Source of the DNA: Candidatus Parcubacteria bacterium
GTDB lineage: Bacteria; Patescibacteriota; Patescibacteriia; Magasanikbacterales; UBA922
Assembly: GCA_002869205.1 (NCBI GenBank)
Contig: PKTJ01000043.1
Location: 1-42,064 of the forward strand
DNA length: 42,064 nt
Direction of reading: 5' to 3'
Below the pieces are notes generated by a model, which did not search any database, was not told the origin of the DNA, and saw nothing but the letters and a program-made list of their open reading frames with translations. Shown one piece after another: positions 7,240-35,831 of the stretch (its first letter is position 1; every line of letters begins with the position of its first letter). The translations under genes and the position numbers were made by a program.

Positions 7240-7240
7240 A

Positions 7241-7290
7241 AATAAAGACAAAAAGCACTCGTTTATGACGGGTGTTTTTTTGTCTTTATT
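7241..7290. terminator. Bidirectional intrinsic terminator
   Basis: aataaagacaaaaa-gcactcgtttatgacgggtg-tttttttgtctttatt, long stem with A/T flanks. Confidence 0.8.
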
Positions 7291-7373
7291 TATCCACTTT
7301 TGAGTCAAATAATAAACATATTTTTGTGTTATAATATGTGTGTATTTTTGTACAAATTATTCATGATAATTTC

Positions 7374-10300
7374 ATGAATGTGATGAGGAAAAGACATCAT
7401 TATTTTGGTTCCATAAGACCTGGAAAAAAGGTCAATTTTTTGTATCTATGGGTTGGAATTATTGTTCTTGGTTTAGGGATTTTGGGAAGTTTATTTTTTC
7501 AGAGATTTGTATTTGCAGCTATTACGGATTATGAGGCAGTAGGGACATATGTTGTTTCTGATGGGGATGCAGGCACTTCGGTCGTAGTGGATGATGAATT
7601 AAATCCACATGTGTTTTATTCCACAGACACTACAAGTATTTGCGGTTCTGCCGATCGGTATGTGCATTCTTACAAGGATGAAGGTGTTTGGACACACGAG
7701 TGTCTGGATGCCGATGATAATAGTTCTACCAGAGGGTTTATTAGCGCGGTTTTTAGAAATTCAGGAGGGCAGCAACTGATTTATGTGGCATATAGGGCGA
7801 GTAATGACATGTCATTTAAATATAAACAAAAAACTACCGCACAGAGCTGGAGTGATGTAAGTTGGCAGGATGGATCTGCAACAATTACCTCTTCGAATGC
7901 TGTTGTGAGTTCGGCAGATTTGATTTTGGATGGTAATGGATATATTACACTGGCGTATATTGATGGTGACACGTCTGATGCTGATGCATATTTTTACCAA
8001 GATACTGACAATGATTTGAGCTTTGCTGATGAGACGAGGAAGACCATAGCGACCAATTTTCAGAGTTATGTGTATGGTTATTTCAATACAATTGAGCTTG
8101 CTCTTAGGCCGAGCACAGCTGATACGTTTAGTGTAATTTGGGGAACTGGTCCACAATATAGAAATATATCAAATCAAGCGAGGATTTATTATGAACATTA
8201 CGATGGCGATTGGGATAATACGGGTACAACGATTTGTGACAATGTAAATGGGTGTTATTCCCCATCTATCGCATATAGGAGTAACGGTGATGTGGTGGTT
8301 TCTTATTTTGAAATAGAAACTTATCCAAATAGCAGGCTAGAGACTGCGTACTATGATGATTCAGAGACAAGTTGGTCTACTAATAATCTAATAGCGACAC
8401 TTTCGAGCACTGAATGGCCTCATACCGCTATGACAGTAACAAGTGATGATCGAGTACATCTTTCATATGGTAATACGACAGGTGGTTTGGCTCGTTATAC
8501 ATATAGCGACACAGGTGTGAGTTCCTGGGCAAGTACCCAAAATATTGGATACATGGAAAAGAGGTTAGATATGTATCCTCGAGATACCTATGTGCATATT
8601 GCCGGTCATGCCGACACCTCAGAAGGTAGTGGGCGCATATATTACACCACGGATGATCCGGGTAACAATCCTCCGACCGTTACTGATATTAGTCCGCAGC
8701 AGACATCCACAAGTTTAGTTACTGTGACCACGACTATTGCGGATGCAAATAGTGATGTGACAAGTCTCATGGTCGAACATTCGACTGATGGAAGTTCTTG
8801 GTCTTCGAGTACTATTGGTACGGCAACACAAAATAGTGAAGGAGATGGTACAGTGACATCAACTGCTCAGATTACTGATATTGATACTGATAATGATGGT
8901 AGTGTTGATCTTACATTTACATGGAATGTAGGTGTGGATGTGCCAAACACAGAAACTTCCACAGTGTATCTAAAAATCACACCAAATGATGGTACGGTAG
9001 ATGGTGATGTGGTGAGTTCCACTGCTTTTGCTATCGATACAAGGGATCCTACTGTGCCGGGAAGTCTTAGTGTTAATACAACATCTACGCAAGCAGTCAT
9101 TTTAAATTTTGGCACAACGAGTACTGATAGTAATTTTTCTGAATATAAACTATTTTATAAGACTTCTAGCCCAGTTACAGAATCTGACACAGCGTTTACT
9201 TCTAGCTCTGATATAAATTTGGCTACCTCCACACTCAATGGAGTTTCCACAACTACTATTTCTGGTTTTGCTACAAACACACTTTATTATGTGAATATTT
9301 GGGCATATGATACATGGGGGAATGCGACTTCTTCCCCTAATGAAGTTAGTTTCTATACATTAGCAAACACTCCAACAGGACTTACCAATAGTGCACTTGC
9401 GACGAGTACGGCAAGTTTTAATGTTTCTGCGTTTAATAATGATTCATTAGGTTCTTCTGGATATTATTTTGATCTCACACTTACTGCCAATGGATCTTCT
9501 GTGTCTAGTTCGAGCTGGCAATCAGGGGACAACACTTGGTCTGTGTCGTCGCTTACACCAAATACAGGGTATACTATAGAAGCAATGTATCGTAACGGCG
9601 ATGGTGTGGAGACAGTCACTACGAGTTTGAGTTTTACAACATTATCAAATGAAATTTCATCTATAACTCCTACTGTGGATTCAGATACTCAGATTACGTT
9701 GGCTTGGACAGGAGATTCTACAGAGTATCGATCACAAAATTATACGATTAGTTCTACAACCGAATGGTCTGCCAACACATCTTCTGTATGGTCTGGTCTC
9801 ACACCAAACACGACATACGAGTTCTTGGTTCAAGGTAGTAATGGTTTGGGGGTCACAACTACATGGTCTAGCACGAGTACTGCAGTTACCTATTCTACTA
9901 TTCCTGCTTCAGTTTCTGCTACGCCAAATTCGTCTTCTCAAATTACTGTTTCTTGGGTCGCGGTAAATAGCTCGTGGTATCAAGTAGAGAGAGTTGACAC
10001 GAGTGCGACTTCATCGTGGACACAAAGTAACTCCATATCTTTTTCTGGATTGTCGGCAGATACAGAATATAGTTTTCGGGTAAAAGCAAAAAATTCACAA
10101 GATGATGAAACTGATTGGAGTTCTGCAGTGTCAATAACCACGGATGATCAGGTTGATACTGGTACAGGTGATTCTTGTTCAGATGTAGATAATCCGACAG
10201 GTGAGTTTACTATAAATAATGGAGATAAATATACGTCTAGTACAGACATTTTTTTCAATTTCTTTAATCTCAGCGAAGGTGCTTCAAAATATAGTGTTGC

Positions 10301-13300
10301 ACAAGAAGATAATTTTGTTGGATTGTCTTATGCTGCAATGAACGACGTTGATACGTTTAATTTTTCACTGTCTCCGGGTGAAGGAGAAAAGCAGGTTTAC
10401 ACCAAATTAAAACATAGTACCTGTAACAAAACTTCTGTGGTTAGTAGTACGATTATACTAGATGAAACTGCACCTATTTTTGCAGGGGATAATATAGAAA
10501 AGTTGCCAGCTGACACAAAAAATTATTTAGTTACACATTTAAAGTTTGATGAAGAGTCTGGGGAAACTGCACAAGATTCTGCTCACTCAAATGATGGGAC
10601 TATTGTTGGTGGTTCATCAATTGATAATGCAATTTCTTTTTCCGGATTACTTTTTGATGGTGATGATTATGTGACGATTCCTAATACTAATGACATTAAT
10701 TTAGGATTGCATGAACAGCGCTCTGTTAGTGTGTGGTTTAAAGTAGTAGATAAGGATTTGGCTACCAAACAAGTTATTTATGAAGAAGGAGGGCAATCAA
10801 GAGGTCTTAATATTTATGTCCACGATGGAAGTTTGTATGTTGGTGGTTGGAATAATGTAACTAGTGAAAGTCGTTGGACAGGCACTTGGCTCTCTACATC
10901 TGACATCGAAAACAATACATGGCATCATGTTGTCCTTACACTCAATGGTTTTTCTGATATCTATCCAGAAACTCTCAAGGCATATCTCGATAGTGAATTG
11001 TATGGTGCAGGAGAAGGTTCTCAATTGTGGGGACACACCGGGGATATTTCTATTGGGCGTAATGGTGATACAAAATTTCATGATGGCGGTGACGGTACTG
11101 ATGGTGAATATTTTGTCGGATCCATTGATGAGCTCGCTATTTTCAATGACAATTTATCAGCAGATGAGGTGGAGACATTATATAGTTCTATTTCAGTTGA
11201 TACATCATCTGAAAATACACGATCTGTGTTTAGAGGAAAAGTCGCAGATAATTATCTGGAGGATGTGCAGGTACATATGCGTTTGCTGCACTTTGAGCCT
11301 GGTGTGAGTAATCCTATCATTTCAGATATAGATGATGAGCTGTCTCTTCTTGATAGTATGTCTGAAATATTTTCTAATATAAATGTCTTGACTGTCGCGG
11401 CAATAACAAATCCAGAATATTATGTTGTCGAATCTGTCTCGCCAGCTGAGGATGGTAGTTTTGTTATCACTGTTCCTTTTTCTGAGGCAGGAGAATATAT
11501 AGTGGAGGTTCAGGCTGAAGACGGTGCAGGTAATGTGAGTAAATCATATACTAAGACATTGTCGCTCACAAGCTATGAAGAGATTTGTGGTGATCATATA
11601 GACAACAATGGTAACGATAGAATAGACGAAGGGTGCGGCTGTGATACAACTTTGAGTACTGATCCCGATGGTGACGGTATTGATGCCTATGAAGATAATT
11701 GTCCATGTGAGTATAATCCTCATCAAGAGGATGAAGATGGGGATGGTGTGGGTGATGCGTGTGATAATTGCATTGCAACAGCAAATCCGGCACAAGTTGA
11801 TTATTATGGGCCAGATGGTATTGGGGATGCATGCCAGTTGACTCCGGACAAATTTGTTTGTGATACGATTCCGTATATTACACTTGATATTTCACGAGCA
11901 GAAAATACTGGGGCGGGTGATTCACAAAGTAAAGTATTTATTGGTAACACCGATACCTCTGTAGAATCTGGTGACATTTTGTATTTGCGTGATTTCACCT
12001 CAGAGGGAGAGGGAAAAAACATGTACTACGATCAGACGGTCAGACAAAATGTTGGTGGTATGGCAGTCAGGCGTGGGCCGGGCTGGATCAGTTTAGTGTT
12101 ATACGGTCATCATGGTTCAGGGGCAGGAAAAGAAATTATGGATGTCGATTTTACCTTGAATGGAGCTCGTATTACTTCGTTTGAAAATGTAAATTTAGAA
12201 AATCAGGGCGATGGTAGACACACAGATAATGCTGGTCAAGACGAAGTTTATTTTTGGACAGAAGGGTATGAAAAGGGTATCAATCCTCCTTTTGGTATTG
12301 GTAGTAATCAGGTGCAGTCACGTCTTCGTGTTACAACACATCATGATGAGTTTTATATCAAATATAGATGTGATGATACAGGTGACCCACCACCTCCACT
12401 ACCTGACACAGACAAAGATACAATTTTGGACAAAGATGATAATTGTCCGTATGAACCAAATCGTGAGCAAGAAGATGGGGATGGAGATGGTAAGGGGGAT
12501 GCCTGTGATTATTGTCCTGATGTAAAAGAAGGTAGATTCGATTTTAGTGCAAATAAAAATTTTAAGAGTAGAGAACAAGGACATTTTGGTAAAGTGGAAA
12601 TTCCACCCCAACAATCCTATGAAAATAAATATGTCGATGTAAGTTGTTATAGATCTTTTGATCAAATGGGATATGAATCGTCAGACAAGTTTATGGCTCT
12701 CAGCGATATCTATAAGTATGAGTCAAGTGTGCAGTTCAATGATTCAGATATAAAAATTGCTTTTTCATTTGATCCAGAAGAGGTGAATGTAGAAGAAGAT
12801 GCAATTTATCGTAAGGTTGGTAGTGGATCATGGGAAAAGCAGGAAACAATCTTTGACACAGATACTCACACTGCATATGCCCATACAGATGGATTTTCTT
12901 ACTGGGTTTTGGCTCATGCGGATGGAGACCTTGTCATTGATACAGATGAGGATGGTATTCCAGATGACGTAGACAATTGTCCAACTGTTTACAATCCTCT
13001 TCAGGTTGATGAAGATGGGGACGGCATAGGTGACGCGTGTCAGGATGATGATGACGATGATGATGCAGAATGTGGTAACGATATAGTGGAAGAAGGGGAA
13101 GAGTGCGACGGTTCGGCAGAAGACGGATTTTATTGCAGTCTTTCTTGTAATCTCGTGCCGATCACATCAGATCCTGTTTGTGGTAATGGAATACTTGAGA
13201 CAGGGGAATCATGTGACGATAATAATAATATCAATGGGGATGGTTGTTCCTCGTCTTGTTTTGTGGAAGTCGACCCCGATGACCCTACAGATCCAGAAGA

Positions 13301-14408
13301 TCCTAATCCGACAAGTGGAGATCCTGAAGATCCAGAAGAGCCGTCTATTGGTGAATCAATTATAAATTTTATTACACCAGTCAGTGAACAAATTAAAAAA
13401 ATGGCTAAGGTGGTCCAAGATATAACTCGAAAAACTATAGAAGTTATACAAAAAGTAATTGACAACCCTCAAGTTGAGGAAGTAAATGAAAAAATAATTG
13501 TACCGGTGATTGCTACTGCAGGTGTTGCAAACGTTGCTATTGGTTTTCAATTCCCAAATATATTCATGTTCTTGCGCTACCTTTTTGGCCAGCCTCTCCT
13601 AGCTCTTCGTCGTCGTAAGCAAAAACAATGGGGGGTTGTGTATGATGCATTTACCAAGCAACCTGTTGGTCTCGCTACGATTCGTGTGATAGATACCGTA
13701 CAAAACAAAGTGGTGCGCTCACAAGTGAGTGATACGCAAGGAAGATATTATATTATTTTGGATCCAGGTACGTATCGTCTCGAAGTAATCAAACCAGGAT
13801 TTACCGGATTTAGTGAATATCTTGAACATAAGAATGAGGATGCAAGATACATTAATCTATATCATGGAGAAGATTTTGAAATAGTAGAAGATAATGGTGA
13901 GCTCAACTACAATATCCCTCTTGATGCTGTAGAAAAATCAGGAGAAACACATGCTATTCTCAAAGATTATACACATAAGTTGTGGCATTATGGTATCGGA
14001 CTATCTGGTGTTATTATTACTGCGGTTTCATTTATTATCTCACCAAATTTGATTGTGTTAGCATTTTTCTTCCTACATTTATTATTATTTGGCATTGCAT
14101 ATCAGTTTGGACACAAGAAATTAGGAGAGACGTGGGGTATTATTACTGCGTCCAAGACACGTAAGAAGATTGGTAAGGTGATTGTGCGTGTGTTTGATGC
14201 GCAATATAATAAACTCGTAAATACCGGTATTTCTGATCGCAAGGGAAGATATGCTATTTTGGTTGGTCCAAGTCGTTATTATGCAACATATGAAAAGTCA
14301 GGGTACAAAGAAAAGAGGGGTAATACCCTCGACCTATCGAGTGAAAAAACAGACGGAATGGGTGGTATTATTGGTGAAAATGAGGAGCTAGAGCATAAGG
14401 TAAAATAG
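7374..14408 (+). CDS. Giant surface protein, class B: sialidase-like propeller head, FN3-like stalk, LamG-like domain, TSP3 Ca2+-binding repeats, Cys-rich DUF4215-like repeats, TM/CarboxypepD_reg-like anchor
   Basis: Track ORF starts at a GTG at 7338, but a TATAAT lies at 7330-7335, so ATG 7374 or 7383 is more likely. LamG-like LKFDEESGETAQDSAHSNDG...FDGDDYVTIPN; TSP3 DTDEDGIPDDVDNCPTVYNPLQVDEDGDGIGDAC; CGNGILETGESCDDNNNINGDGCSSSC; C-terminal TM helices and two TKQPVGLATIRVID/GKVIVRVFDAQ domains. Confidence 0.85.
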   Translation: MNVMRKRHHYFGSIRPGKKVNFLYLWVGIIVLGLGILGSLFFQRFVFAAITDYEAVGTYVVSDGDAGTSVVVDDELNPHVFYSTDTTSICGSADRYVHSYKDEGVWTHECLDADDNSSTRGFISAVFRNSGGQQLIYVAYRASNDMSFKYKQKTTAQSWSDVSWQDGSATITSSNAVVSSADLILDGNGYITLAYIDGDTSDADAYFYQDTDNDLSFADETRKTIATNFQSYVYGYFNTIELALRPSTADTFSVIWGTGPQYRNISNQARIYYEHYDGDWDNTGTTICDNVNGCYSPSIAYRSNGDVVVSYFEIETYPNSRLETAYYDDSETSWSTNNLIATLSSTEWPHTAMTVTSDDRVHLSYGNTTGGLARYTYSDTGVSSWASTQNIGYMEKRLDMYPRDTYVHIAGHADTSEGSGRIYYTTDDPGNNPPTVTDISPQQTSTSLVTVTTTIADANSDVTSLMVEHSTDGSSWSSSTIGTATQNSEGDGTVTSTAQITDIDTDNDGSVDLTFTWNVGVDVPNTETSTVYLKITPNDGTVDGDVVSSTAFAIDTRDPTVPGSLSVNTTSTQAVILNFGTTSTDSNFSEYKLFYKTSSPVTESDTAFTSSSDINLATSTLNGVSTTTISGFATNTLYYVNIWAYDTWGNATSSPNEVSFYTLANTPTGLTNSALATSTASFNVSAFNNDSLGSSGYYFDLTLTANGSSVSSSSWQSGDNTWSVSSLTPNTGYTIEAMYRNGDGVETVTTSLSFTTLSNEISSITPTVDSDTQITLAWTGDSTEYRSQNYTISSTTEWSANTSSVWSGLTPNTTYEFLVQGSNGLGVTTTWSSTSTAVTYSTIPASVSATPNSSSQITVSWVAVNSSWYQVERVDTSATSSWTQSNSISFSGLSADTEYSFRVKAKNSQDDETDWSSAVSITTDDQVDTGTGDSCSDVDNPTGEFTINNGDKYTSSTDIFFNFFNLSEGASKYSVAQEDNFVGLSYAAMNDVDTFNFSLSPGEGEKQVYTKLKHSTCNKTSVVSSTIILDETAPIFAGDNIEKLPADTKNYLVTHLKFDEESGETAQDSAHSNDGTIVGGSSIDNAISFSGLLFDGDDYVTIPNTNDINLGLHEQRSVSVWFKVVDKDLATKQVIYEEGGQSRGLNIYVHDGSLYVGGWNNVTSESRWTGTWLSTSDIENNTWHHVVLTLNGFSDIYPETLKAYLDSELYGAGEGSQLWGHTGDISIGRNGDTKFHDGGDGTDGEYFVGSIDELAIFNDNLSADEVETLYSSISVDTSSENTRSVFRGKVADNYLEDVQVHMRLLHFEPGVSNPIISDIDDELSLLDSMSEIFSNINVLTVAAITNPEYYVVESVSPAEDGSFVITVPFSEAGEYIVEVQAEDGAGNVSKSYTKTLSLTSYEEICGDHIDNNGNDRIDEGCGCDTTLSTDPDGDGIDAYEDNCPCEYNPHQEDEDGDGVGDACDNCIATANPAQVDYYGPDGIGDACQLTPDKFVCDTIPYITLDISRAENTGAGDSQSKVFIGNTDTSVESGDILYLRDFTSEGEGKNMYYDQTVRQNVGGMAVRRGPGWISLVLYGHHGSGAGKEIMDVDFTLNGARITSFENVNLENQGDGRHTDNAGQDEVYFWTEGYEKGINPPFGIGSNQVQSRLRVTTHHDEFYIKYRCDDTGDPPPPLPDTDKDTILDKDDNCPYEPNREQEDGDGDGKGDACDYCPDVKEGRFDFSANKNFKSREQGHFGKVEIPPQQSYENKYVDVSCYRSFDQMGYESSDKFMALSDIYKYESSVQFNDSDIKIAFSFDPEEVNVEEDAIYRKVGSGSWEKQETIFDTDTHTAYAHTDGFSYWVLAHADGDLVIDTDEDGIPDDVDNCPTVYNPLQVDEDGDGIGDACQDDDDDDDAECGNDIVEEGEECDGSAEDGFYCSLSCNLVPITSDPVCGNGILETGESCDDNNNINGDGCSSSCFVEVDPDDPTDPEDPNPTSGDPEDPEEPSIGESIINFITPVSEQIKKMAKVVQDITRKTIEVIQKVIDNPQVEEVNEKIIVPVIATAGVANVAIGFQFPNIFMFLRYLFGQPLLALRRRKQKQWGVVYDAFTKQPVGLATIRVIDTVQNKVVRSQVSDTQGRYYIILDPGTYRLEVIKPGFTGFSEYLEHKNEDARYINLYHGEDFEIVEDNGELNYNIPLDAVEKSGETHAILKDYTHKLWHYGIGLSGVIITAVSFIISPNLIVLAFFFLHLLLFGIAYQFGHKKLGETWGIITASKTRKKIGKVIVRVFDAQYNKLVNTGISDRKGRYAILVGPSRYYATYEKSGYKEKRGNTLDLSSEKTDGMGGIIGENEELEHKVK

Positions 14409-14421
14409 GTTAGGGTTAATT

Positions 14422-14452
14422 ATTGAACACCATTGTAATAATGGTGTTTTTT
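14422..14452 (+). terminator. Intrinsic terminator
   Basis: aacaccattgtaataatggtgttttttt hairpin plus T-tract just after the stop codon. Confidence 0.85.
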
Positions 14453-14478
14453 TATCCCCATTTTTGGCTACGTAGACC

Positions 14479-14507
14479 TTACAACCAGCTCTTTTTATTG
14501 ATATAAT
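14479..14507 (+). promoter_or_regulatory. Promoter TTACAA-N17-TATAAT of the 14514 gene
   Basis: Hexamers at 14479-14484 and 14502-14507; predicted TSS falls on or near the A of ATG 14514. Confidence 0.7.
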
Positions 14508-14513
14508 TAGTGC

Positions 14514-17500
14514 ATGAAACACAATATGGGAAATGAAAATGTAAATGGCGCAAGTCAGCTTGTTTTTAAATATGCAGCCGTATTTTATATTTTTATTTTT
14601 TTGTGTTTTTCTGTCAGTTTGTTGAAGGTTGCGTCTGTAATAACGATATATGCTCAGCAAGATAAACTAACCGCAAGCGATGCCGCCGCTGGTGATAGAT
14701 TTGGAGATTCGGTATCTATAAGCGGAGATTATGCCATTGTAGGAGCTTATGCCGATGCTAGTTCTCAGGGTTCGGCTTATATTTTCAAACGAAGTGGCGA
14801 AACATGGACTGAAATAAAGAAACTAACCGCAAGCGATGCCGCCGCTGGTGATAGATTTGGAGATGAGGTTGCCATAAGTGGAAATTATGCTATTGTTGGA
14901 GCATATGCTAACGCTGATGCAGGCGCCTTTTCTGGTTCGGCATATGTTTTTTACAAAGATCAGGGTGGAGTAGACAATTGGGGAGAGGTAAAAAAATTAA
15001 CCGCAAGTGATGCTGCAGCAAGCGATGTTTTTGGTTTCAATGTGTCTATAGATGGAGAATATGCGGTAGTTGGTGCACATCAAAATGATGATGGCGGGTC
15101 TCTTTCTGGTTCGGCATATGTTTTTTACAAAGATCAGGGTGGAGTAGACAATTGGGGAGAGGTGAAAAAAATCATAGCTAGCGATGATGCCGCAGGAGAT
15201 CATTTCGGAGATGATGTTTCTATAAGTGGAAGTGTTATTGTGGTTGGGGCTTGGGGGGACAGTTCTTTTGCTGGTTCGGCATATGTTTTTTACAAAGATT
15301 ATGGAGGTTTAAATAATTGGGGACAGTATAAAAAAATAACAGCCAGTGATGCAGCGGCAAGTGATTTTTTTGGGGACAGTATTTCTATAAGTGGAGATTA
15401 TGTAGTTGTTGGGGCAATCGGCAATGATGATGTAGGTTCTGATTCTGGTTCGGCATATGTTTTTCAGAAAGGCGATTTTGAAACTTGGGGGCAGATAAAA
15501 AAATTAACAGCCAGTGATATTGCTGATAGTGATAATTTTGGTGTAGATGTTTCTATAAGTGGAGAGTATGTGGTGGTTGGTGCATATAAAAATGACGATG
15601 TGGGTTCTGATTCTGGTTCAGCATATATTTTCTATAAAGATGAGGGTAGTGTAGATAATTGGGGGGAACAAACTAAGATAACAGCAGATGATGCTGCAGA
15701 CAGTGATTTTTTTGGATGGAGCGTTTCCATAAGTGGAGATTATGCGAATGTAGGGGCTTATGGGAATGATGATGATGGAGCCTTGTCTGGTTCATCCTAT
15801 ATTTTTTATACTGCGCCGTCTAATGCGGCACCATCAGCCACAACTCTTACACCATCACAGACAACCGCAGATATTGTAATGGTTACGACAACAATTGCAG
15901 ACACTGATGGTGATCTTACCAGTTCTACGTTTCAATATTCTATCAATGGAATTGACTGGACCAATGCAACTATTGGAGATGTGACGCAGAACGAAGCACT
16001 TGATGGTGTTGTGACTTCCACTGGAAGTATTCAAGACATTGATACAGATACTGATGCTGATAACAGCGTTGACCTGACTATTGAATGGATGGTTTCTACT
16101 GATCTGCCAAACACAGCTACCAATACTGCACAAATACGCATGACACCAAATGATGGTACGACAGATGGTACGACTCAGACATCCGCAGTATTTTCTATTG
16201 ATACAGCCACACCATCTCCAGCACTTGATGCACTGACCATTAATACCACATCGACAACATCGGTAATTTTAAATCTATCCACTACTACTGATGACAACTT
16301 TTCTGAATATATTATTTATTATAGTACTTCAACTCCGGTAACAACGACGAGTACTGAACTTTCTTCATCTACATTTTCTTATTTTGCTTCGAGTACTTGG
16401 GAAGGAAATGTAACTACGACATTATCTTCGCTGACTACCAATACACTGTATTATGTAGGTCTTTGGGCATATGATAGTTTTGGTAATAGCACATCTACGG
16501 CAAGTGAACTTAGCTTTTATACACTGACACCTAATCCTACTAATTTTGCTACTACGTCACTTACCTCAAGTACGGTTGATTTTTATGTGGATTCATTTGA
16601 TAATTTTGCTTCGGGAACGTCTGGTTATTATTTTGATCTTGCGTTGTTTGGTGGAGCATCGGTGACAACTACAGGGTGGACGACATCGAGTAATATGTGG
16701 TCATTAGATTCGCTTACGCCAAATACACGCTACACTGCATCGGTAAATTATCGTAATGGTGATGGTGTCTTGGCCGCAACATCGACATTAAACTTTTACA
16801 CATTGGCGGAGGTTCCAGGTGCCTCAACTCTTGCTGACCCAACAAACACTACTGTTGATATTACGGTGAATGCAGGGAATAATCCTGCTGCGACTGAATT
16901 TGCACTCTACAATGTGACTGACAGTACGTATATAGACGGGAGTGGTGATGCATCGGGCACCGTCGTGTGGAATACAGCTACGGTTTGGGGCACGATAACA
17001 GCGAATGATCTCACACCAAATACCAATTATGAGTTTTATGTAAAAGCAAGAAATGCCAGCGAAATAGAGACTGCTTTTGGAAGTAGTGCAACGGCATACA
17101 CGGCAGCTGGTACGCCAACATCAGTTACCGCGTCAGTAAGTGGAAGTGATGTGACAGTGAGCTGGTCTGGGACAGCAGCCGCTTATTGGGTAGAAGATAA
17201 TTCTGATTCTACCCGTAATTCTGGTTGGATCACGGCGACAACATATACTTTTTCAGGTTTGAGCAACGGCGCATATACTTTTAAAGTAAAAGGGAAAAAT
17301 GCAGAGGATACTGAAACAGTATATGTTTCAGCTAGTGCTGTGCAGGTGAGTGTCGGCGGCGGCGGTTCTACTGATAGTGGAGATGGAAGCACGGATGATT
17401 CAAATGATTCTGATTGTTCTACAGTAGAAGAATGTAATGAAGAAATAGAAGAGGACGCAGTGGGTTGGATAAAAATAAATAATGGAGATTTGCAAACGGA

Positions 17501-20042
17501 CTCACATACTGTAACACTAGATATACATCATGATACAGCAAATTTATATAGAGTTGTTGAAGCCTTAGATTTTCAAGACTGTTCTGCAGAGGGGGTTTTT
17601 ACTGGAGGATTTACATTTTTTAATGGCCCAGACAGAACTAGACCTTTTACATTTTCTGATGGTCCGGGGGACAAAAAAATATGTGTAAAGTTTTATATAT
17701 CTGGCAAAGGAACAACAGCCCCATACACAGCGGCTATTAATGTGATCGGAGATGAGGAAGAGGTTGAGGAAATTATTCCGCATCCATGTGCTGATTCTCC
17801 ACCAAATATTTTGAAAATTCAACCGTATAATGTTGGTAATGTACCTATTGACGGTAGTGGAACTATGGATCTGGTAAAAAATAGTCGAAGTGGAAATATA
17901 GATATTACTTTTCAAACGTGCAAAGAAGCTACTTTGTATATGAAATATATTAGTGACGAGCCGTTTAGCGATGAAAATCTCGGTGAATGGATTGGAAGTA
18001 CTAAGCCGATCTGGAATGGAAGATTTCCTACACTTCGATTGGGGCATTCTGCTCTGGGATTATATAATTCCATAAGGTTTAAATTGTATGATTTTCCAGA
18101 TGTTATATATATGCGTTATGGTGTAAAGGCGCCATTAGCTTCGGCAGCTTTGGCATCTGTTGATCCAAATAATCCTGACATCTTGTTTGGAGATACAATA
18201 CAAATAGGTACTAATCCTGTTACAACAGTAGATCAATGTACTGAGAATCCGGATCTATATATCTGTAGTGGAGATCATGATGAGGATGGAATTATTGATG
18301 GACAGGATAATTGTCCAAGTCATGCAAATGCAGATCAATTAGATACTGATGATGATGGATTGGGGGATGTGTGTGATGAGTGTGTTGATGATGCAACAAA
18401 TACATGTGGTGATACAGATAAAGATAAGATACTCGATGATTATGATAATTGTTTAAATACACCTAATTTTGATCAGTTAGATACTGATAGTGATGGTCTG
18501 GGTGATGTGTGTGATGAGGACATTGATAATGATTCTATTCTTAACCTTTCTGATAATTGTCCATTAATTCCAAATGCAGACCAACTAGATACAGACGGTG
18601 ATGGAATTGGTGACGTTTGTGATATTCAAAACTCAGTTTGTAATAACAAAATTAAAGAAGGTGACGAAGAGTGTGATACATATGCTCCGGAAGGTTTTTA
18701 TTGTAATTTATCGTGTGAGTTGGTAGAGACTGAAGAAGAGTCAGTGTGTGGTAATAGTACTGTGGAGGCTGGTGAAACATGTGATGATGGAAATCTTATT
18801 TCAGGTGATGGGTGTTCGTCAGTCTGTTTATGGGAATCAGTAGAAGAAGATGTGGTAGAAGATAATGGAGAGGGTGAAGAAGGGGATGAAAGTAGTGGAG
18901 AGGCTGATTCGGGTGGAACAGAAAATGCACAAGGCAACGGATCAAATGGTAGCGACAACACTTCGGGAAGTTTTTTTACCAATATTGGTAATGGTGTTGT
19001 AGATACATTTAAAAAAATACGAGAAACAGTAGCAAATATTATACCAGAACAGGTGAAAGAAATGGCGCTTCAAACAGTTGAAGCAATTAGAAAAGTAATA
19101 GATAACCCTCAGGTTGAAGAAGTAAATGAAAAAATAATTGTACCGGCAATTGCCACCGCAGGTGTTGCCAACGTGGCCGTCGGTTTCCAACTTCCAAATA
19201 TTTTTGCATTTTTACGATATATATTTGGTCAACCACTTCTTGCTTTGCGTCGTCGCAAGCAGAAGAAGTGGGGAATTGTCTATGATGCGTTTACCAAGCA
19301 ACCTGTCGGACTTGCAATGGTGCGTATCTTGGACGCACAGACTAAGAAAGTGGTGCGTTCTCAGGTGACCGATGCTCAGGGACGTTATTATCTCATGCTT
19401 GATGCTGGTGAATATACTATCGAGGTGGTAAAGACAGGATTTAGTGGATTTAGTGAATATCTCAAGAATAAGGGTGAAGATGCAAAATATATTAATTTAT
19501 ATCATGGTGAGTCATTTGAAATAAAAGAAGAAAGTGGTGAATTGAATTATAATATTCCACTTGATGCGCAGAGTATGTCAGCTGGTACCAAGCAAATACT
19601 GAGAGATTATACCAGTAAGGTTTTGCATTACGGAGTTGGTTTGTCTGGTGTTGTCATTACCGCGATATCGTTTATCATTTCGCCAAACGCGATTGTGCTT
19701 GCATTTTTCTTTTTCCACCTCCTCCTATTCTCTGTAGCATACATGTTTGGTCACAAGTCATTGAAGGGTGGTTGGGGTACGGTGACTATTGAGGGTGGTG
19801 TGAAAAAACTTGGTAAGGTGATTGTGCGTGTGTTTGATGCTGAATATGATAAATTGGTGGGTACTGGTGTGACAGATCGAAAGGGTAGGTATGCAGTGCT
19901 TGTAGGTCCAAGCACCTATTATGCAACGTATGAAAAAGAAGGGTTTAAAGAAAAAAAGAGTGATACCATTGATCTCTCAAGTAGAAAAACAGATGGTATG
20001 GGTGGGATTATTGGTAGAGATGAGAAGCTTGAAAAGGAGTAA
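14514..20042 (+). CDS. Giant surface protein, class B: seven FG-GAP repeats (integrin-alpha-like beta-propeller head), FN3-like stalk, TSP3 repeats, Cys-rich repeat, TM/CarboxypepD_reg-like anchor
   Basis: 1842 aa; seven copies of K(L/I)TASDAAAxDxFGxxVSISGxYxxVGAxxNDDxGxxSGSAYxF; TSP3 DTDGDGIGDVCD; CGNSTVEAGETCDDGNLISGDGCSSVC; C-terminus nearly identical in layout to the 7374-14408 protein. Confidence 0.9.
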   Translation: MKHNMGNENVNGASQLVFKYAAVFYIFIFLCFSVSLLKVASVITIYAQQDKLTASDAAAGDRFGDSVSISGDYAIVGAYADASSQGSAYIFKRSGETWTEIKKLTASDAAAGDRFGDEVAISGNYAIVGAYANADAGAFSGSAYVFYKDQGGVDNWGEVKKLTASDAAASDVFGFNVSIDGEYAVVGAHQNDDGGSLSGSAYVFYKDQGGVDNWGEVKKIIASDDAAGDHFGDDVSISGSVIVVGAWGDSSFAGSAYVFYKDYGGLNNWGQYKKITASDAAASDFFGDSISISGDYVVVGAIGNDDVGSDSGSAYVFQKGDFETWGQIKKLTASDIADSDNFGVDVSISGEYVVVGAYKNDDVGSDSGSAYIFYKDEGSVDNWGEQTKITADDAADSDFFGWSVSISGDYANVGAYGNDDDGALSGSSYIFYTAPSNAAPSATTLTPSQTTADIVMVTTTIADTDGDLTSSTFQYSINGIDWTNATIGDVTQNEALDGVVTSTGSIQDIDTDTDADNSVDLTIEWMVSTDLPNTATNTAQIRMTPNDGTTDGTTQTSAVFSIDTATPSPALDALTINTTSTTSVILNLSTTTDDNFSEYIIYYSTSTPVTTTSTELSSSTFSYFASSTWEGNVTTTLSSLTTNTLYYVGLWAYDSFGNSTSTASELSFYTLTPNPTNFATTSLTSSTVDFYVDSFDNFASGTSGYYFDLALFGGASVTTTGWTTSSNMWSLDSLTPNTRYTASVNYRNGDGVLAATSTLNFYTLAEVPGASTLADPTNTTVDITVNAGNNPAATEFALYNVTDSTYIDGSGDASGTVVWNTATVWGTITANDLTPNTNYEFYVKARNASEIETAFGSSATAYTAAGTPTSVTASVSGSDVTVSWSGTAAAYWVEDNSDSTRNSGWITATTYTFSGLSNGAYTFKVKGKNAEDTETVYVSASAVQVSVGGGGSTDSGDGSTDDSNDSDCSTVEECNEEIEEDAVGWIKINNGDLQTDSHTVTLDIHHDTANLYRVVEALDFQDCSAEGVFTGGFTFFNGPDRTRPFTFSDGPGDKKICVKFYISGKGTTAPYTAAINVIGDEEEVEEIIPHPCADSPPNILKIQPYNVGNVPIDGSGTMDLVKNSRSGNIDITFQTCKEATLYMKYISDEPFSDENLGEWIGSTKPIWNGRFPTLRLGHSALGLYNSIRFKLYDFPDVIYMRYGVKAPLASAALASVDPNNPDILFGDTIQIGTNPVTTVDQCTENPDLYICSGDHDEDGIIDGQDNCPSHANADQLDTDDDGLGDVCDECVDDATNTCGDTDKDKILDDYDNCLNTPNFDQLDTDSDGLGDVCDEDIDNDSILNLSDNCPLIPNADQLDTDGDGIGDVCDIQNSVCNNKIKEGDEECDTYAPEGFYCNLSCELVETEEESVCGNSTVEAGETCDDGNLISGDGCSSVCLWESVEEDVVEDNGEGEEGDESSGEADSGGTENAQGNGSNGSDNTSGSFFTNIGNGVVDTFKKIRETVANIIPEQVKEMALQTVEAIRKVIDNPQVEEVNEKIIVPAIATAGVANVAVGFQLPNIFAFLRYIFGQPLLALRRRKQKKWGIVYDAFTKQPVGLAMVRILDAQTKKVVRSQVTDAQGRYYLMLDAGEYTIEVVKTGFSGFSEYLKNKGEDAKYINLYHGESFEIKEESGELNYNIPLDAQSMSAGTKQILRDYTSKVLHYGVGLSGVVITAISFIISPNAIVLAFFFFHLLLFSVAYMFGHKSLKGGWGTVTIEGGVKKLGKVIVRVFDAEYDKLVGTGVTDRKGRYAVLVGPSTYYATYEKEGFKEKKSDTIDLSSRKTDGMGGIIGRDEKLEKE
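14664..15810 (+). repeat. Tandem coding repeats (seven FG-GAP blades) with nucleotide-identical blocks
   Basis: 45-bp exact repeat at 14664-14708 and 14820-14864; 60-bp exact repeat at 14930-14989 and 15104-15163. Confidence 0.9.
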
Positions 20043-20119: not shown

Positions 20120-20131
20120 TTAAATAAGAAT

Positions 20132-20186
20132 ATACTTAATATAGCTCCTCCCTCTTTTTAAGAGGGAGGTCGGGAGGGAGTTGTGT
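20132..20186. repeat. Half copy of the MITE-like element at 136-243
   Basis: By manual alignment, 49 of 55 positions match 189-243 (tacttaatatagct...ctccctctt...aagagggaggtcgggagggagttg). Confidence 0.8.
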
Positions 20187-20521: not shown

Positions 20522-21529
20522 ATGTCAAAAATCAAAGTAGCGATTAATGGATTTGGGAGGATTGGGCGTCATGCGTTCAAGATTGCAAAAGAGAACAAAC
20601 ACCTCGAAGTGGTGGCAATTAATGATCTTACAGATAATAAGTCTCTCGCACATTTGCTTAAATATGATACTGCGTATCCTGACACAGGGTATGAGGTTGG
20701 GTATGATGATGACCATCTGATTGTGGATGGTAAAAAGGTAAATGCATATTCAGAAAAAGATCCAAGTCAGCTTCCATGGAAAGACCTTGAGGTTGATGTG
20801 GTGATTGAATCTACCGGTGTATTTCGAACACGAGAGAAAGCCGGTTTGCATTTGGAAGCAGGAGCCAAAAAAGTCGTGTTGTCAGCACCAGGAAAAGGTG
20901 AAGGTATAGAGACATTTGTGAGAGGATTAAATTGTGAAAGTTATAAAGAAAGTAAGGCAGAAGTCATTGATAATGCATCTTGTACTACCAATTGTACCGC
21001 TCCCGTTATGCGTGTGATGGAGGATAGTTTTGGTATTGAAAAGGCAATGCTTACGACAATTCATTCATACACTGCTGACCAAAATATCCAAGACGGTCCA
21101 CACAAAGATCTTCGTCGTGCCAGAGCCGCTGCACAAAATATGGTACCGACTTCTACAGGTGCCGCTGTTGCTACAACCAAGGTGGTGAAAGAGGTCGAAG
21201 GAGTGTTTGATGGAATTGCGGTTCGTGTACCAACCATTACTGTTTCACTTGTAGACTTTAGTCTCGTGCTCAAAAAAGATGTAACAGTAGAAGAAGTAAA
21301 TGAAGCGCTTTCTAAAGCATCAAAAGGTTATCTCAAGGGAATCCTCGATGTCACAAACGAGCCGCTTGTATCCTCTGACTTCATTGGTAATGCATATTCA
21401 TCCATTGCAGACCTCGGAATGACTAAGGTCGTTGGTGGAAATTTGGTAAAAATTATTTCTTGGTATGATAATGAGTGGGGGTATGCGAACAGACTTGTGG
21501 AGATGGTAGAGATCGTCGGTAAGAGCTAG
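20522..21529 (+). CDS. gap: Type I glyceraldehyde-3-phosphate dehydrogenase
   Basis: MSKIKVAINGFGRIGRHAFK ... IDNASCTTNCTAPVMRVM ... SWYDNEWGYANRLVEMV. The track's upstream 13-aa extension is unlikely. Confidence 0.98.
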   Translation: MSKIKVAINGFGRIGRHAFKIAKENKHLEVVAINDLTDNKSLAHLLKYDTAYPDTGYEVGYDDDHLIVDGKKVNAYSEKDPSQLPWKDLEVDVVIESTGVFRTREKAGLHLEAGAKKVVLSAPGKGEGIETFVRGLNCESYKESKAEVIDNASCTTNCTAPVMRVMEDSFGIEKAMLTTIHSYTADQNIQDGPHKDLRRARAAAQNMVPTSTGAAVATTKVVKEVEGVFDGIAVRVPTITVSLVDFSLVLKKDVTVEEVNEALSKASKGYLKGILDVTNEPLVSSDFIGNAYSSIADLGMTKVVGGNLVKIISWYDNEWGYANRLVEMVEIVGKS

Positions 21530-21534
21530 ATCCT

Positions 21535-22046
21535 GATTTCCGGATAATCCAGATTGACGGATATTGTGATTCAGATTTACAGATAAATTGTGGGGTTAAT
21601 TTATAATTTCCTATGTATGGAAAAGAAAAATTACTCTACAAAGATTTAACGTACAAAATTAGAGGAATTTTATTTAAAATTCATAATGACTTAGGAAGAT
21701 TTTGTAATGAAAAGCAGTATGGAGATGCTTTTGAGCAAGGTCTTACAGACGAAGGAATTGAATATGAGAGAGAAAAGATACTACATATTAGTTTTGTTGG
21801 AGAGAAAAAAGGACGAAATAGGATCGATTTTCTTATAGAAGACAAAATAATAATTGAGCTGAAATGTGTAAGTTGTTTAGGTCGTGGAGACTATCACCAG
21901 TGTCAGAGATATTTGAAAAGTAGTGGTCTTGATTTAGCTTTATTGGTTAATTTTAGACCTAGATATCTATTAATTAGAAGAATTTTAAATTATCAAAAAC
22001 ATAATAAGGAAGATGGCAATCCGTAGATCTGGATTATCCGGAAATC
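21535..22046 (+). mobile_element. Putative mobile cassette: GxxExxY ORF bounded by 20-bp perfect inverted repeats
   Basis: gatttccggataatccagat (21535-21554) and its exact reverse complement atctggattatccggaaatc (22027-22046); the ORF stop codon ends at 22026, immediately before the right repeat. Confidence 0.6.
21613..22026 (+). CDS. GxxExxY-family protein, PD-(D/E)XK nuclease-like fold
   Basis: 137 aa; YKIRGILFKIHNDLGRFCNEKQYGDAFEQGL ... RIDFLIEDKIIIELKCV (D...ExK-like core) ... LALLVNF. First motif is divergent from GxxExxY. Confidence 0.8.
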   Translation: MYGKEKLLYKDLTYKIRGILFKIHNDLGRFCNEKQYGDAFEQGLTDEGIEYEREKILHISFVGEKKGRNRIDFLIEDKIIIELKCVSCLGRGDYHQCQRYLKSSGLDLALLVNFRPRYLLIRRILNYQKHNKEDGNP

Positions 22047-22065
22047 CGAATCTCAAAGTATCCCT

Positions 22066-23268
22066 ATGAAAACCATAAAACAAATTCGTAATCTCAAAGG
22101 CAAAAATGTGCTTGTGCGTGTAGATTTTAACGTGCCGATAAAACGTGGCAAGGTGCTTGACGATACACGACTTCATGCATCGCTTCCTACGATTGAGTAT
22201 CTCATGAAGAAAAAAGCAAAAGTTATTTTGGTTACGCATATTGGACGCCCTGGTGGAAAGGTTGTTGCCAGTTTGAAAGTTGATCTGGTGGTAAAAAGAT
22301 TATCCGAGTTACTCAAGAAAAAAGTTACGAAACTTGAAACAGAAAATTGGCGTTTGAGTGACAAAAAGAAAATGAATCTTTTGAAAAAGATAGACAAAAT
22401 GCGTCCAGGACAGGTCGCTCTGATGGAAAATATTCGTTTTTCACAAGATGAGAAAAAAGATACTGGTACACTGAGTCAAGAACTTGCTAACTTGGTAGAT
22501 TACTTTGTACTTGATGGTTTCGCAGTGGCGCATAGACCATCTGCTTCGGTCGTAGGCGTAGCACAATATGTACCGAGTTATGCTGGTTTGCTTTTAGAAA
22601 GTGAGATCAAAGGTCTGGAGAAGGTTTTGCAAAAACCAAAGGCCCCTTTTGTCGTGGTGCTTGGTGGTGCAAAGATGGAGACTAAAGTTCCTGTTATGAA
22701 AAAGCTTGTTCCGTTGTGTGACTTTATGCTTATTGGTGGCGGAGTTCTCAATACATATCTCAAGGCAAGGGGGTACGGTGTAGGAAGTTCGCTTATTGAT
22801 ATGACATTCAAAAAAGAAGCTCTGAATTATGGAAAAAGGAAAAAAGTAATCAAGCCGGTAGATGTAGTTGTAGGTTCTCGCGATGGAAAGAGTTATCGTT
22901 TGGTTGCACTCAAGAAAACTCCACATAAAATCTGTAAAAAAGGTGAAGAAATACTTGATATTGGACCACATTCTATCAATTTATATTCACAATTTATCAA
23001 AGAGGCTGAAACATTGGTATGGAATGGTGCTATTGGATATTTTGAACAAAAACCATACGATATAGGGACTTTGTCAGTGGCACGTCTTGTTGCTGGTCGA
23101 TCAAAAGGTCAGGCCTATGGTGTGATAGGTGGGGGAGAGACTCTGCAGTCTATGGATATGGTTGGAATGACTGAATTTGTAGATCTTGTTTCTACTGGCG
23201 GTGGTGCCATGCTTGAGTTTCTTTCAGGCAAAAGATTGCCAGGTATAGATGTGGTGTGTAAAAAATGA
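22066..23268 (+). CDS. pgk: Phosphoglycerate kinase
   Basis: GKNVLVRVDFNVPIKRGKVLDDTRLHASLPTIEYL ... LGGAKMETKVPVMKKLV ... GGGETLQSMDMVGM...VSTGGGAMLEFLSGKRLPGI. Confidence 0.98.
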   Translation: MKTIKQIRNLKGKNVLVRVDFNVPIKRGKVLDDTRLHASLPTIEYLMKKKAKVILVTHIGRPGGKVVASLKVDLVVKRLSELLKKKVTKLETENWRLSDKKKMNLLKKIDKMRPGQVALMENIRFSQDEKKDTGTLSQELANLVDYFVLDGFAVAHRPSASVVGVAQYVPSYAGLLLESEIKGLEKVLQKPKAPFVVVLGGAKMETKVPVMKKLVPLCDFMLIGGGVLNTYLKARGYGVGSSLIDMTFKKEALNYGKRKKVIKPVDVVVGSRDGKSYRLVALKKTPHKICKKGEEILDIGPHSINLYSQFIKEAETLVWNGAIGYFEQKPYDIGTLSVARLVAGRSKGQAYGVIGGGETLQSMDMVGMTEFVDLVSTGGGAMLEFLSGKRLPGIDVVCKK

Positions 23269-32474: not shown

Positions 32475-32532
32475 ATTTTTTAGCTTATTTATTAATATAA
32501 TAACTTGTGTAAGTATATACCAAAAGGCAGGA

Positions 32533-32561
32533 TTGAATCAATCCTCAAAATAGGCTATACT
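32533..32561 (+). promoter_or_regulatory. Promoter TTGAAT-N17-TATACT of the first gpmI
   Basis: Hexamers at 32533-32538 and 32556-32561; ATG at 32571. Confidence 0.7.
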
Positions 32562-32570
32562 ATCTCTACT

Positions 32571-34154
32571 ATGACAGGATCAAAAGTACCAAAAAAACAA
32601 GTAAAAAGTAAGCGTGAAGGACCTACGCTTCTTATTATTTTAGACGGATTTGGGCTTGCTGACCCGAAAGAAAAGGGGAATGCAATAACGCCTCAGACCG
32701 CGCCACATATTTTTGGGTATATGAAAAAGTATCCAAATTCAACACTCAAAACATATGGTGAGCATGTTGGATTGTTCAAAGGTCAGCAAGGTAATTCAGA
32801 AGCAGGGCACATGAATATTGGTGCTGGTAGAATTGTAAAACAAGACTTAGTTGAAATTTCAGACGCAATCCATAATGGGACGTTCTATAAAAAAGAAGCT
32901 TTCAAACAAGCTATTCATCATGTGAAGAAGTACAAAACTGCCGTTCATATTATGGGACTTTTGACTGATGGCAATAGTGCTCATGCGTATCCTGAACACT
33001 TGTATGCGACGCTTGAACTGTGCCGTCGTGAAAAAATAGACAAAGTTTATTTGCATCTATTTACTGATGGACGAGATTCACCTCCACATGCTGCGGCGAC
33101 GTATTTATACGAATTACGTGGGCATATGATGGCACATGAAAAGATAGCAACAATTATGGGGCGCTTTTATGGAATGGATAGAAATAAATATTGGGATCGT
33201 ACCAAACAGGCATACGAAGCTATGATACTTGGCAAAGGTTGTGCCGCCCCAAGTGCTGAAGAGGCAATATCTCAGAGTTACAATCGCAATGAAACAGATG
33301 AGTTTATTTGTCCAACGGTAATTGTCGAGGGAAATAAACCTGTGGCAACGATCAAAGATAATGATGCTATATTTTTTATTAACGCACGTAGTGATAGGGC
33401 GCGACAGATTACCAAGGTTTTTGTACAAAAGGATTTCAATAAGATGAATCCAGGAAGTTTCAAGCGTGCGAAGTATCCAAAAAACACACGATTTGTTGCT
33501 ATGACAGATTTTGGCCCAGATCTTGAAGGCATTTTTACGGTATTTCCATCTCCTGACTTGGTTGGCACTTTGCCAATGGCGCTTCACGAGAAGGAACAAC
33601 TATATATTGCAGAGTCAGAGAAGTATGCACATGTGACATACTTTATAAATGGTGGTTATGCAGATCATGTAGGAGGGGAAGTCCGTATGAAGATTGATTC
33701 AAAAGAAACAAAAAGCTATGACAAAAAACCTGAGATGTCAGCCGCAGGAGTTGCTGATGAAATTATTCGTTATTTAGAAAAAGATTACTTGGATTTTTGT
33801 TGTGTAAATTTTGCCAATCCAGACATGGTTGGTCATACAGGAAATCTTCAAGCAGGAAAGAAAGCAGTGGCAGAAGTGGATTCTCAGGTGAAGAGAATTG
33901 TTGACATAATTGTGAAAAAAAATGGACAAGCGCTTATTATCGCAGATCATGGAAATGCAGAAGTGATGATAAATAAAAAAACAGGAGAGATTATGACTGA
34001 ACATACCACTAATCCGGTGCCGTGTATATTGATCAAGAATAATATCGAAGGCATAAAAATTAAAAATGGTATTTTGGCGGATGTCGCACCAACTATCTTG
34101 AAGATGATGGGTGTGGAGAAGCCAGAAGAGATGACCGGAAAATCTTTAATTTAG
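32571..34154 (+). CDS. gpmI: 2,3-bisphosphoglycerate-independent phosphoglycerate mutase, divergent paralog
   Basis: LLIILDGFGLADPKEKGNAI ... GQQGNSEAGHMNIGAGRIV ... VNFANPDMVGHTGN ... IADHGNAEVM. Start revised from 32505 to the ATG after the promoter. Confidence 0.93.
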   Translation: MTGSKVPKKQVKSKREGPTLLIILDGFGLADPKEKGNAITPQTAPHIFGYMKKYPNSTLKTYGEHVGLFKGQQGNSEAGHMNIGAGRIVKQDLVEISDAIHNGTFYKKEAFKQAIHHVKKYKTAVHIMGLLTDGNSAHAYPEHLYATLELCRREKIDKVYLHLFTDGRDSPPHAAATYLYELRGHMMAHEKIATIMGRFYGMDRNKYWDRTKQAYEAMILGKGCAAPSAEEAISQSYNRNETDEFICPTVIVEGNKPVATIKDNDAIFFINARSDRARQITKVFVQKDFNKMNPGSFKRAKYPKNTRFVAMTDFGPDLEGIFTVFPSPDLVGTLPMALHEKEQLYIAESEKYAHVTYFINGGYADHVGGEVRMKIDSKETKSYDKKPEMSAAGVADEIIRYLEKDYLDFCCVNFANPDMVGHTGNLQAGKKAVAEVDSQVKRIVDIIVKKNGQALIIADHGNAEVMINKKTGEIMTEHTTNPVPCILIKNNIEGIKIKNGILADVAPTILKMMGVEKPEEMTGKSLI

Positions 34155-34193
34155 ATCCTGATATTCAGATACCCGTAGGGCATCCCTCTTCGG

Positions 34194-34235
34194 GGATAAT
34201 CCAGATTTACAGATATCTGTAAATCTGGATTATCC
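34194..34235. repeat. 42-bp perfect palindrome between the two gpmI genes, related to the cassette inverted repeats
   Basis: ggataatccagatttacagatatctgtaaatctggattatcc is its own reverse complement; it shares ggataatccagatt with 21542-21555 and ctggattatccggaaatc with the right cassette repeat. Confidence 0.95.
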
Positions 34236-34253
34236 GGAAATCAGAATATTATT

Positions 34254-35831
34254 ATGAATAGACCAAAACCAGTAGTGCTCGCTATCCTCGATGGATGGGG
34301 TATTGCACCTGACGGCAAAGGAAATGCTATCACACGAGCAAAGACTCCTACGTTTGATAAGTTTGTGCGTGAGTATCCTGCCATGACCCTTTTTGCTTCG
34401 GGAAATGAAGTCGGTTTGTCGTTTGGTGAAATGGGTAATTCTGAGGTAGGGCATCTCAATATTGGTGCAGGTCGTGTGTATTACCAAACACTCCCGCGTA
34501 TTAATAAGACCATTGATGATGGAACTTTTTTTGATAACAAAGCGTTTTTGTCTGCGACAGATCGTGTCAAAAAAAATAAATCAAAACTACATTTGATTGG
34601 ACTGGTAAGTCCGGGAAATGTGCATGCAAGTCAGGATCATTTATATGCACTTTTGGAATTGGCAAAAAAACAAAAAGTAAAAGAAGTCTATGTACATGTC
34701 ATACTCGATGGACGTGACACGATATATAATTCTGGCATTGATTTTGTAAAACAACTACAGAAAAAAATGAAGAAGTTGAAGGTGGGGGAGATCGCGAGTA
34801 TCTCTGGTCGATATTTTGCTATGGATCGAGATAATAGATGGGACAGGTGTGAGAAAGCATATCTTGCGATGGCAGAAGGAAAATCGTCTGAATATTTCAA
34901 AGATCCGGTAGACGCACTAGAGAGTTCGTATAAAAATGAAGTATATGATGAGGAGTTTGTACCTGTCGTAATAGGAAAAGAAGGTAAGCCTACTACAATC
35001 GTAGAAAAGGGCGATGCAGCAATATTTTTTAATTTTCGTCCAGATCGTGCGCGTCAGTTGACCAAAGCATTTGTGCTGCCTGGGTTTAGTAAATTTGATC
35101 GAGAGTATATAAAAGACTTGTTTTTTGTCACTATGACTGAGTATGAAAAAGAAACTCCAGTGACTGTGGCATACAATCCGGTAGTCGTACATAATTCTCT
35201 CGCAGAGGTTATAAGCAAGGCAGGGCTCAAACAATTTCATATTGCTGAGACAGAAAAATATGCACACATTACTTTTTTCTTAAATGGTACTGTTGAAGAT
35301 CCTTTTGATAAGGAAGATCGTCTCATTATTCCTTCGCCAAAAGTGTCTTCATATGACAAGGCTCCAAAAATGTCAGCCTCAAAGATTACCAAAGAAGTTG
35401 TGAAGGCTATTGAATCAGACAAGTATGATGCTATTATCTTAAACTATGCAAACGCTGACATGGTAGGGCATACAGGAGATACCGATGCCACAATAAAAGG
35501 TTGTGAAGAAGTAGACAAAGGTTTAGGAAAAATTGCTGATTATATTTTGGCACAAGATGGTGTCTTACTTGTCACTGCTGATCATGGTAATGGCGAAGAA
35601 GTGTCCAATTTACAAACAGGTGAAATGGACAAAGAACATAGTACCAATCCGGTGCCTTTTCTCATTGTTGGGAATGAATATAAAGGTCAGGCAGGATCTG
35701 CTGGCGATCCCCCAGATGGAGATATGAGTTTGATGCACCCTGTGGGAGTTTTGGCTGATGTGGCACCAACCATGCTAAAGATCTTGGATGTAGACCAGCC
35801 AAAAGAAATGACAGGTAGGGCATTGATATAA
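34254..35831 (+). CDS. gpmI: 2,3-bisphosphoglycerate-independent phosphoglycerate mutase, canonical paralog
   Basis: VVLAILDGWGIAPDGKGNAI ... FGEMGNSEVGHLNIGAGRVYYQTLPRINKTIDDGTF ... VTADHGNGEEV. Confidence 0.96.
   Translation: MNRPKPVVLAILDGWGIAPDGKGNAITRAKTPTFDKFVREYPAMTLFASGNEVGLSFGEMGNSEVGHLNIGAGRVYYQTLPRINKTIDDGTFFDNKAFLSATDRVKKNKSKLHLIGLVSPGNVHASQDHLYALLELAKKQKVKEVYVHVILDGRDTIYNSGIDFVKQLQKKMKKLKVGEIASISGRYFAMDRDNRWDRCEKAYLAMAEGKSSEYFKDPVDALESSYKNEVYDEEFVPVVIGKEGKPTTIVEKGDAAIFFNFRPDRARQLTKAFVLPGFSKFDREYIKDLFFVTMTEYEKETPVTVAYNPVVVHNSLAEVISKAGLKQFHIAETEKYAHITFFLNGTVEDPFDKEDRLIIPSPKVSSYDKAPKMSASKITKEVVKAIESDKYDAIILNYANADMVGHTGDTDATIKGCEEVDKGLGKIADYILAQDGVLLVTADHGNGEEVSNLQTGEMDKEHSTNPVPFLIVGNEYKGQAGSAGDPPDGDMSLMHPVGVLADVAPTMLKILDVDQPKEMTGRALI

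Follow-up and report, generated by a model that had tools for sequence, protein, structure and literature searches.

A GxxExxY nuclease-family gene enclosed by inverted iteron arrays between gap and pgk suggests a minimal mobile element in Patescibacteria

The window analyzed here, a 42,064-nt stretch of contig PKTJ01000043.1 from a Candidatus Parcubacteria bacterium, carries a 512-bp cassette between two host genes. On the left lies gap, encoding glyceraldehyde 3-phosphate dehydrogenase (20522-21529, + strand; PF02800, PF00044), and on the right lies pgk, encoding phosphoglycerate kinase (22066-23268, + strand; PF00162). These Pfam assignments bear out the position given to the cassette in a preliminary description of the locus. 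The sole ORF of the cassette (21613-22026, + strand) encodes a GxxExxY protein of 137 aa belonging to a PD-(D/E)XK nuclease family; no recognized transposase or recombinase was seen in the ORF list or in a profile search. Both of the perfect 20-bp inverted repeats first reported around this ORF were located, with GATTTCCGGATAATCCAGAT at 21535-21554 (+) and 22027-22046 (-), and the right copy does begin immediately after the TAG stop codon at 22024-22026. A further copy was found at 34223-34242 (-), and 100 dinucleotide shuffles gave an expectation of none.

The inverted repeat is longer than 20 bp. It extends over 35 nt at 89% (21528-21562, + strand, and 22019-22053, - strand), so that the left arm reaches into the gap stop codon and the inner end of the right array includes the GxxExxY stop codon. 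The left arm, which is shared with dispersed palindromes, is an iteron array in which AGATCCTGAT, TTCCGGAT, AATCCAGAT and TGACGGAT follow one another, and an extra partial copy of it, ATTCAGATTTACAGAT, was read from the sequence in direct orientation at 21569-21584 (+). The GxxExxY gene occupies precisely the loop of one member of a dispersed palindrome family, and the terminal inverted repeats by which insertion sequences and DNA transposons are recognized are present. Elsewhere in the window, a separate dispersed repeat of 66 nt with an inner hairpin (CTCCCTCTTCGTAAGAGGGAGGTCGGGAGGGAG) occurs at 178-243 and 20121-20186 (85% identical). The window also contains very large ORFs of 1488, 2356 and 1842 aa (14664-15813 and 2773-20042); they have tandem repeats of about 58 aa and paralogous C-terminal regions and probably encode surface proteins.

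The window protein passed the cut-offs of both family profiles, with 94.6 bits against 22 for PF13366 (E 6.7e-27) and 89.1 bits against 35 for TIGR04256 (E 2.5e-25). Across 60 relatives, E33, D72, E82, K84, Y100 and R123 were invariant and Q96 nearly so; the Q96xxxY100 pair, a motif known in RecB, Cas4 and lambda exonuclease, is intact in the window protein. An AF2 model (pLDDT 92.9) was closest to solved folds of the lambda exonuclease type and of Cas4 (E 2e-4 to 8e-4) and matched resolvases less well, and a profile search with the protein gave marginal matches to T7 endonuclease I and Cas4-like proteins. The PD-(D/E)XK-like core attributed to GxxExxY at the outset holds up, since the E...D...ExK set is intact and the fold model agrees. 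Sequence and model together indicate that GxxExxY is a PD-(D/E)XK core with a QxxxY motif, RecB/Cas4/lambda-exonuclease-like.

These nearest folds and the QxxxY motif could also belong to a defense nuclease or a Cas4/RecB-like processing nuclease, with arms that protect or mark host DNA and palindromes that act as self-recognition or stop signals. We hold this to be highly improbable: the GxxExxY protein had no match among PADLOC defense families, on which ground a defense gene was rejected, and cassettes lying within RecG and LepA, described below, behave as selfish elements. The source genome has only one PF13366 gene, and phage and plasmid GxxExxY matches exist but are few. No role for GxxExxY was found in the open-access literature, where the name occurs in two papers only and the passage located concerned an unrelated annotation question; PF13366 is mentioned there in one paper, and a search of the same literature for a CPR homing or inverted-repeat element found no paper.

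The genomes compared were draft assemblies, one per species, with G000 denoting the source genome and G001 the sister species. The repeats singled out in the preliminary description are real, but they are not peculiar to the cassette: an 18-mer of the arm, allowing up to 3 mismatches, matched the 1.06-Mb source genome 61 times, compared with 0 matches for the reversed control, which rules out chance repeats. These matches form 36-38 palindromes that are mostly gene-less, mostly complete and short, with the typical structure AGATCCT-GATTTCCGGATAATCCAGATTTACGGAT-N0..5-ATCCGTAAATCTGGATTATCCGGAAATC-CGTATCT. Solo arms also occur, and in about eleven copies one arm has an insert of about 27 nt. The inserted segment is CCCTTAGGGCATTCACCTTCGGG-like and occupies one fixed point of the arm, in 34159-34248 and about ten others, which make up a subfamily. 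The copy at 34159-34248 (no strand assigned), identified by repeat search and folding, is a gene-less palindrome whose left arm has this insertion (around CCCGTAGGGCATCCCTCTTCGGGG); it is flanked by two adjacent BPG-independent phosphoglycerate mutase (iPGM) genes at 32505-34154 and 34254-35831. The related repeat-only copy suspected at 34194-34235 was confirmed as a perfect 21+21 nt palindrome (folding z = -6.9). Like MITEs, the gene-less palindromes are short, non-coding and dispersed, and their termini are common with a gene-bearing element.

The palindrome folds very stably, and the arms directly bracket the ORF and are mostly intergenic, as might be seen if a normal host nuclease gene used them as regulatory operators or as structural RNA hairpins, for autoregulation or mRNA stability, with the palindromes as a regulon or terminators. 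Arm mismatches, however, showed no preference for G-U over A-C (81 versus 77, p 0.81) and Rfam gave no match, and an RNA hairpin or IVS-like element was rejected on these counts. The patchy occurrence of the gene (41 of 114 genomes), the cassettes inside other ORFs and the empty alleles likewise speak against operators or hairpins, which we consider very unlikely.

The Y1_Tnp transposase profile (PF01797) had no match in the source genome, which is 97% complete, and was present in 5 control genomes; a REP/RAYT system was rejected because no Y1_Tnp was detected in the genome. The source genome contains a second, unrelated palindrome family with TACGAAA iterons (L038:9174-9265 on C10; L045:1340-1420 on C27). 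No cognate GxxExxY gene accompanies these palindromes there; nucleases of that clade, flanked by similar arms, are present in relatives such as G024 and G025.

PF13366 genes were found in 41 of the 114 related genomes, and the flanks of about 125 genes were taken. An inverted-repeat score of at least 14 across the ORF was reached by 84% of 107 stand-alone GxxExxY ORFs from 40 genomes and by 3.75% of 400 other ORFs serving as controls (p 4e-49), the control rate being overstated because several top controls (L139, L144, L110 and L111) come from overlapping loci and are themselves GxxExxY genes. Median best scores were 20.5 and 8.5, respectively, and clear arms were absent at about 16% of the GxxExxY ORFs tested. 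Whether other GxxExxY ORFs share such flanks had been raised at the outset; arm enrichment across the 40 genomes is strong, which argues against ordinary dispersed repeats unrelated to these ORFs.

The arms vary between elements but are short iteron arrays with about 9-bp spacing and a CNRA core; an element has two such arrays, inverted and with about four iterons each. In 188 arms, preselected by a score threshold of 14, CNRA occurred 641 times compared with 243 in shuffles, with a spacing peak at 8-10 nt. The window arm reads as iterons in the same way, with CCTGAT followed by TTCCGGAT, AATCCAGAT and TGACGGAT. In a wider set that also includes other Patescibacteria, 24 of 34 loci scored at least 14, and inverted iteron-like arms were present at GxxExxY genes of Bacteroides finegoldii, Elusimicrobia, an alphaproteobacterium and Fusobacteriaceae. 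A nuclease gene within inverted arms is the anatomy of the family and not of a one-off cassette. The kind of small mobile element suggested by this anatomy is apparently undescribed, and we did not find it in the open-access literature.

Arm sequence varied with the protein. Arm 6-mer similarity increased from 0.03 at protein identities below 25% to 0.23 above 60%, and arm and protein similarity were correlated (Mantel r 0.376, 0 of 2000 permutations) with same-genome pairs and pairs having any common flanking gene left out. Even at unrelated loci, then, arm sequence goes with nuclease phylogeny, and the arms therefore look cognate to the GxxExxY protein. Covariation of this kind would be predicted by sequence-specific recognition and not by chance association; it is a correlation only, and part of it would stem from the shared descent of cassettes that moved as a whole.

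Gene-less copies were also found in relatives. Gene-flanking and gene-less pairs of the GGATAATCCAGAT family occurred together in G024, G038, G044 and others. The unrelated ACGAAA family gave exact-pattern matches at GxxExxY genes in six genomes and others elsewhere: gene-less palindromes were clear in G108 (20 matches), G010 (10) and G082 (2), and further matches in G024, G030 and G084 were single, without an exact partner. Two different iteron families thus have both gene-bearing and gene-less copies. In G027, a unit of 1.5 kb bounded by arms was considered as an element with different cargo and rejected, since it consists of two separate palindromes with a gene between them that, by eye, resembles argininosuccinate synthase.

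Palindromes were present in G007 and G027, which have no PF13366 gene, and orphan ACGAA-type palindromes were present in G000. Since palindromes occur without the nuclease, they are either relics or have another mover, and the orphans count against a nuclease-only reading. In G007 the loop of one palindrome (L118:1480-1720, without GxxExxY) holds another hairpin-type repeat, as if palindrome centers attract insertions. Both the orphans and this loop insertion would suit REP/MITE-like palindromes that are moved by another enzyme, through host recombination or a transposase acting in trans, with GxxExxY as a passenger or a satellite using their landing sites. However, no Y1 transposase was detected in G000, and arm sequence varies with the phylogeny of GxxExxY in different genomes and at unrelated loci, a pattern that would not arise from a passenger. 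We judge movement by another enzyme to be unlikely.

The gap-pgk junction was filled in G000 and G041, where the GxxExxY proteins are 60% identical and the arms differ. The empty junction looked for in relatives was found: it measures 15 nt in G023 and G037, which are of the same genus as G041, and the copy is therefore patchy and not at this site in all relatives. G044 has a 42-nt junction with one half-arm, which is scar-like. By tree path the closest neighbor of the window protein was the G041 protein (weak support), so the insertion between gap and pgk may be old and have passed down vertically; many same-site copies fit vertical inheritance. At the gap-pgk junction of G030 (L154), a REP-associated Y1 transposase-like ORF, identified by eye, was observed with its own inverted repeats.

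Comparison of G000 with G001 identified about seven orthologous palindromes, and three or four were cleanly absent in G001. The G001 ortholog of the gene-less palindrome C58:19515 of G000 is the GxxExxY element; the forms with and without the gene are thus alleles at a single site. The arms of the sole GxxExxY gene of G001 differ from most G001 palindromes. No target site duplication was definable at the G000/G001 empty sites, where the flanks are too diverged. Single gene junctions held GxxExxY proteins of different clades across genomes (L201 versus L213, L233, L236 and L242; L245 versus L253; L237 versus L255), suggesting that these junctions are insertion hot spots.

GxxExxY and its arms also lay in frame with host proteins: between conserved RecG motifs in four genomes, in the LepA G domain, at the RecJ end (three genera) and before dUTPase, all host proteins being named by eye from conserved motifs. 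Inteins were considered and rejected: the long GxxExxY ORFs read as RecG, LepA, RecJ, dUTPase and prepilin-like, and no intein-like domain was seen by eye. Within one genus RecG was empty in G040 and filled in G043 and G045. The empty allele, TTCGCAGACAGTCGGCATTAG (CGCAGAC-A-GTCGGC), has one iteron facing one inverted iteron, which might be a recognition site that the insertion interrupts or else a deletion scar. Over the stretch from -100 to +400 relative to the domain the two filled copies agree at 99-100%, and windows further out were mostly 65-97%, with one other at 100%. This pattern fits recent transfer, which may have occurred by homing or by general interspecies recombination.

On this evidence the cassette is probably a minimal selfish single-gene element, whose nuclease would recognize its own iterons, spread in a homing- or transposition-like manner and leave MITE-like palindromes behind. 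The GxxExxY nuclease would bind its own iterons and probably cut a palindromic target at its dyad or close to it, a gene-less palindrome or a minimal CGCAGACAGTCGGC site being candidate targets. The cassette would then be copied in through host break repair, as in homing, or through an equivalent cut-and-copy step, and the gene-less palindromes would be non-autonomous MITE-like derivatives formed by internal loss, target sites, or both. The preliminary description had offered either a nuclease-driven element or a MITE carrying a nuclease. Arm enrichment and the patchy gap-pgk copy agree with that proposal; capture by a MITE does not look like mere chance, given that the arms track phylogeny, and nuclease-driven movement is what we infer. 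A broader claim is possible but distinctly more doubtful: GxxExxY might be a new kind of mobility enzyme, Cas4/RecB-like, that reads iteron arrays, cuts palindromic junctions and, without a transposase, spreads gene-less palindromes as well as its own gene in many bacterial phyla, including by in-frame insertion into conserved genes.

Several known systems share parts of this anatomy. REP/RAYT systems (REPtrons) usually have one protein gene flanked by palindromic repeats, with non-autonomous copies dispersed, and RAYT is a Y1 tyrosine transposase. Both systems have a gene flanked by palindromic repeats and dispersed gene-less copies; here, in contrast, the protein is a PD-(D/E)XK nuclease with no Y1 detected, and the gene occupies the loop of a single palindrome whose arms are iteron arrays. 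Free-standing homing endonuclease genes include PD-(D/E)XK types such as I-Ssp6803I. In these, as here, a single nuclease gene is the whole element, found at defined places in conserved genes with a patchy distribution and empty alleles (gap-pgk and RecG in this study). The GxxExxY elements differ in their cognate iteron arms and gene-less palindromes; we know of no homing genes with flanking cognate iteron arms or with gene-less palindromes left behind.

To our knowledge no Rickettsia palindromic element (RPE) carries a nuclease gene. According to PMC10969869, which cites Ogata 2000 and 2002, RPEs are palindromic and dispersed and can insert in frame into housekeeping ORFs. By anatomy, related GxxExxY elements resemble them in their in-frame ORF insertions (RecG, LepA), the window copy being intergenic. 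RPEs differ in that they are about 150 bp long and encode a conserved peptide. Bacterial MITEs (PMC10969869) likewise are short gene-less palindromes whose termini are common with a gene-bearing element, whereas the gene-bearing GxxExxY element has no recognized transposase and no definable target duplication.

The nuclease family is widespread, and these results suggest that it belongs to a kind of tiny mobile element. GxxExxY is a curated family without an assigned role, and the anatomical rule supplies a concrete functional hypothesis for it. Dozens of natural protein/iteron pairs become available for studying the recognition of short DNA motifs by a small nuclease. If true, the proposal would account for a large class of short palindromes interspersed in the reduced genomes of Patescibacteria.
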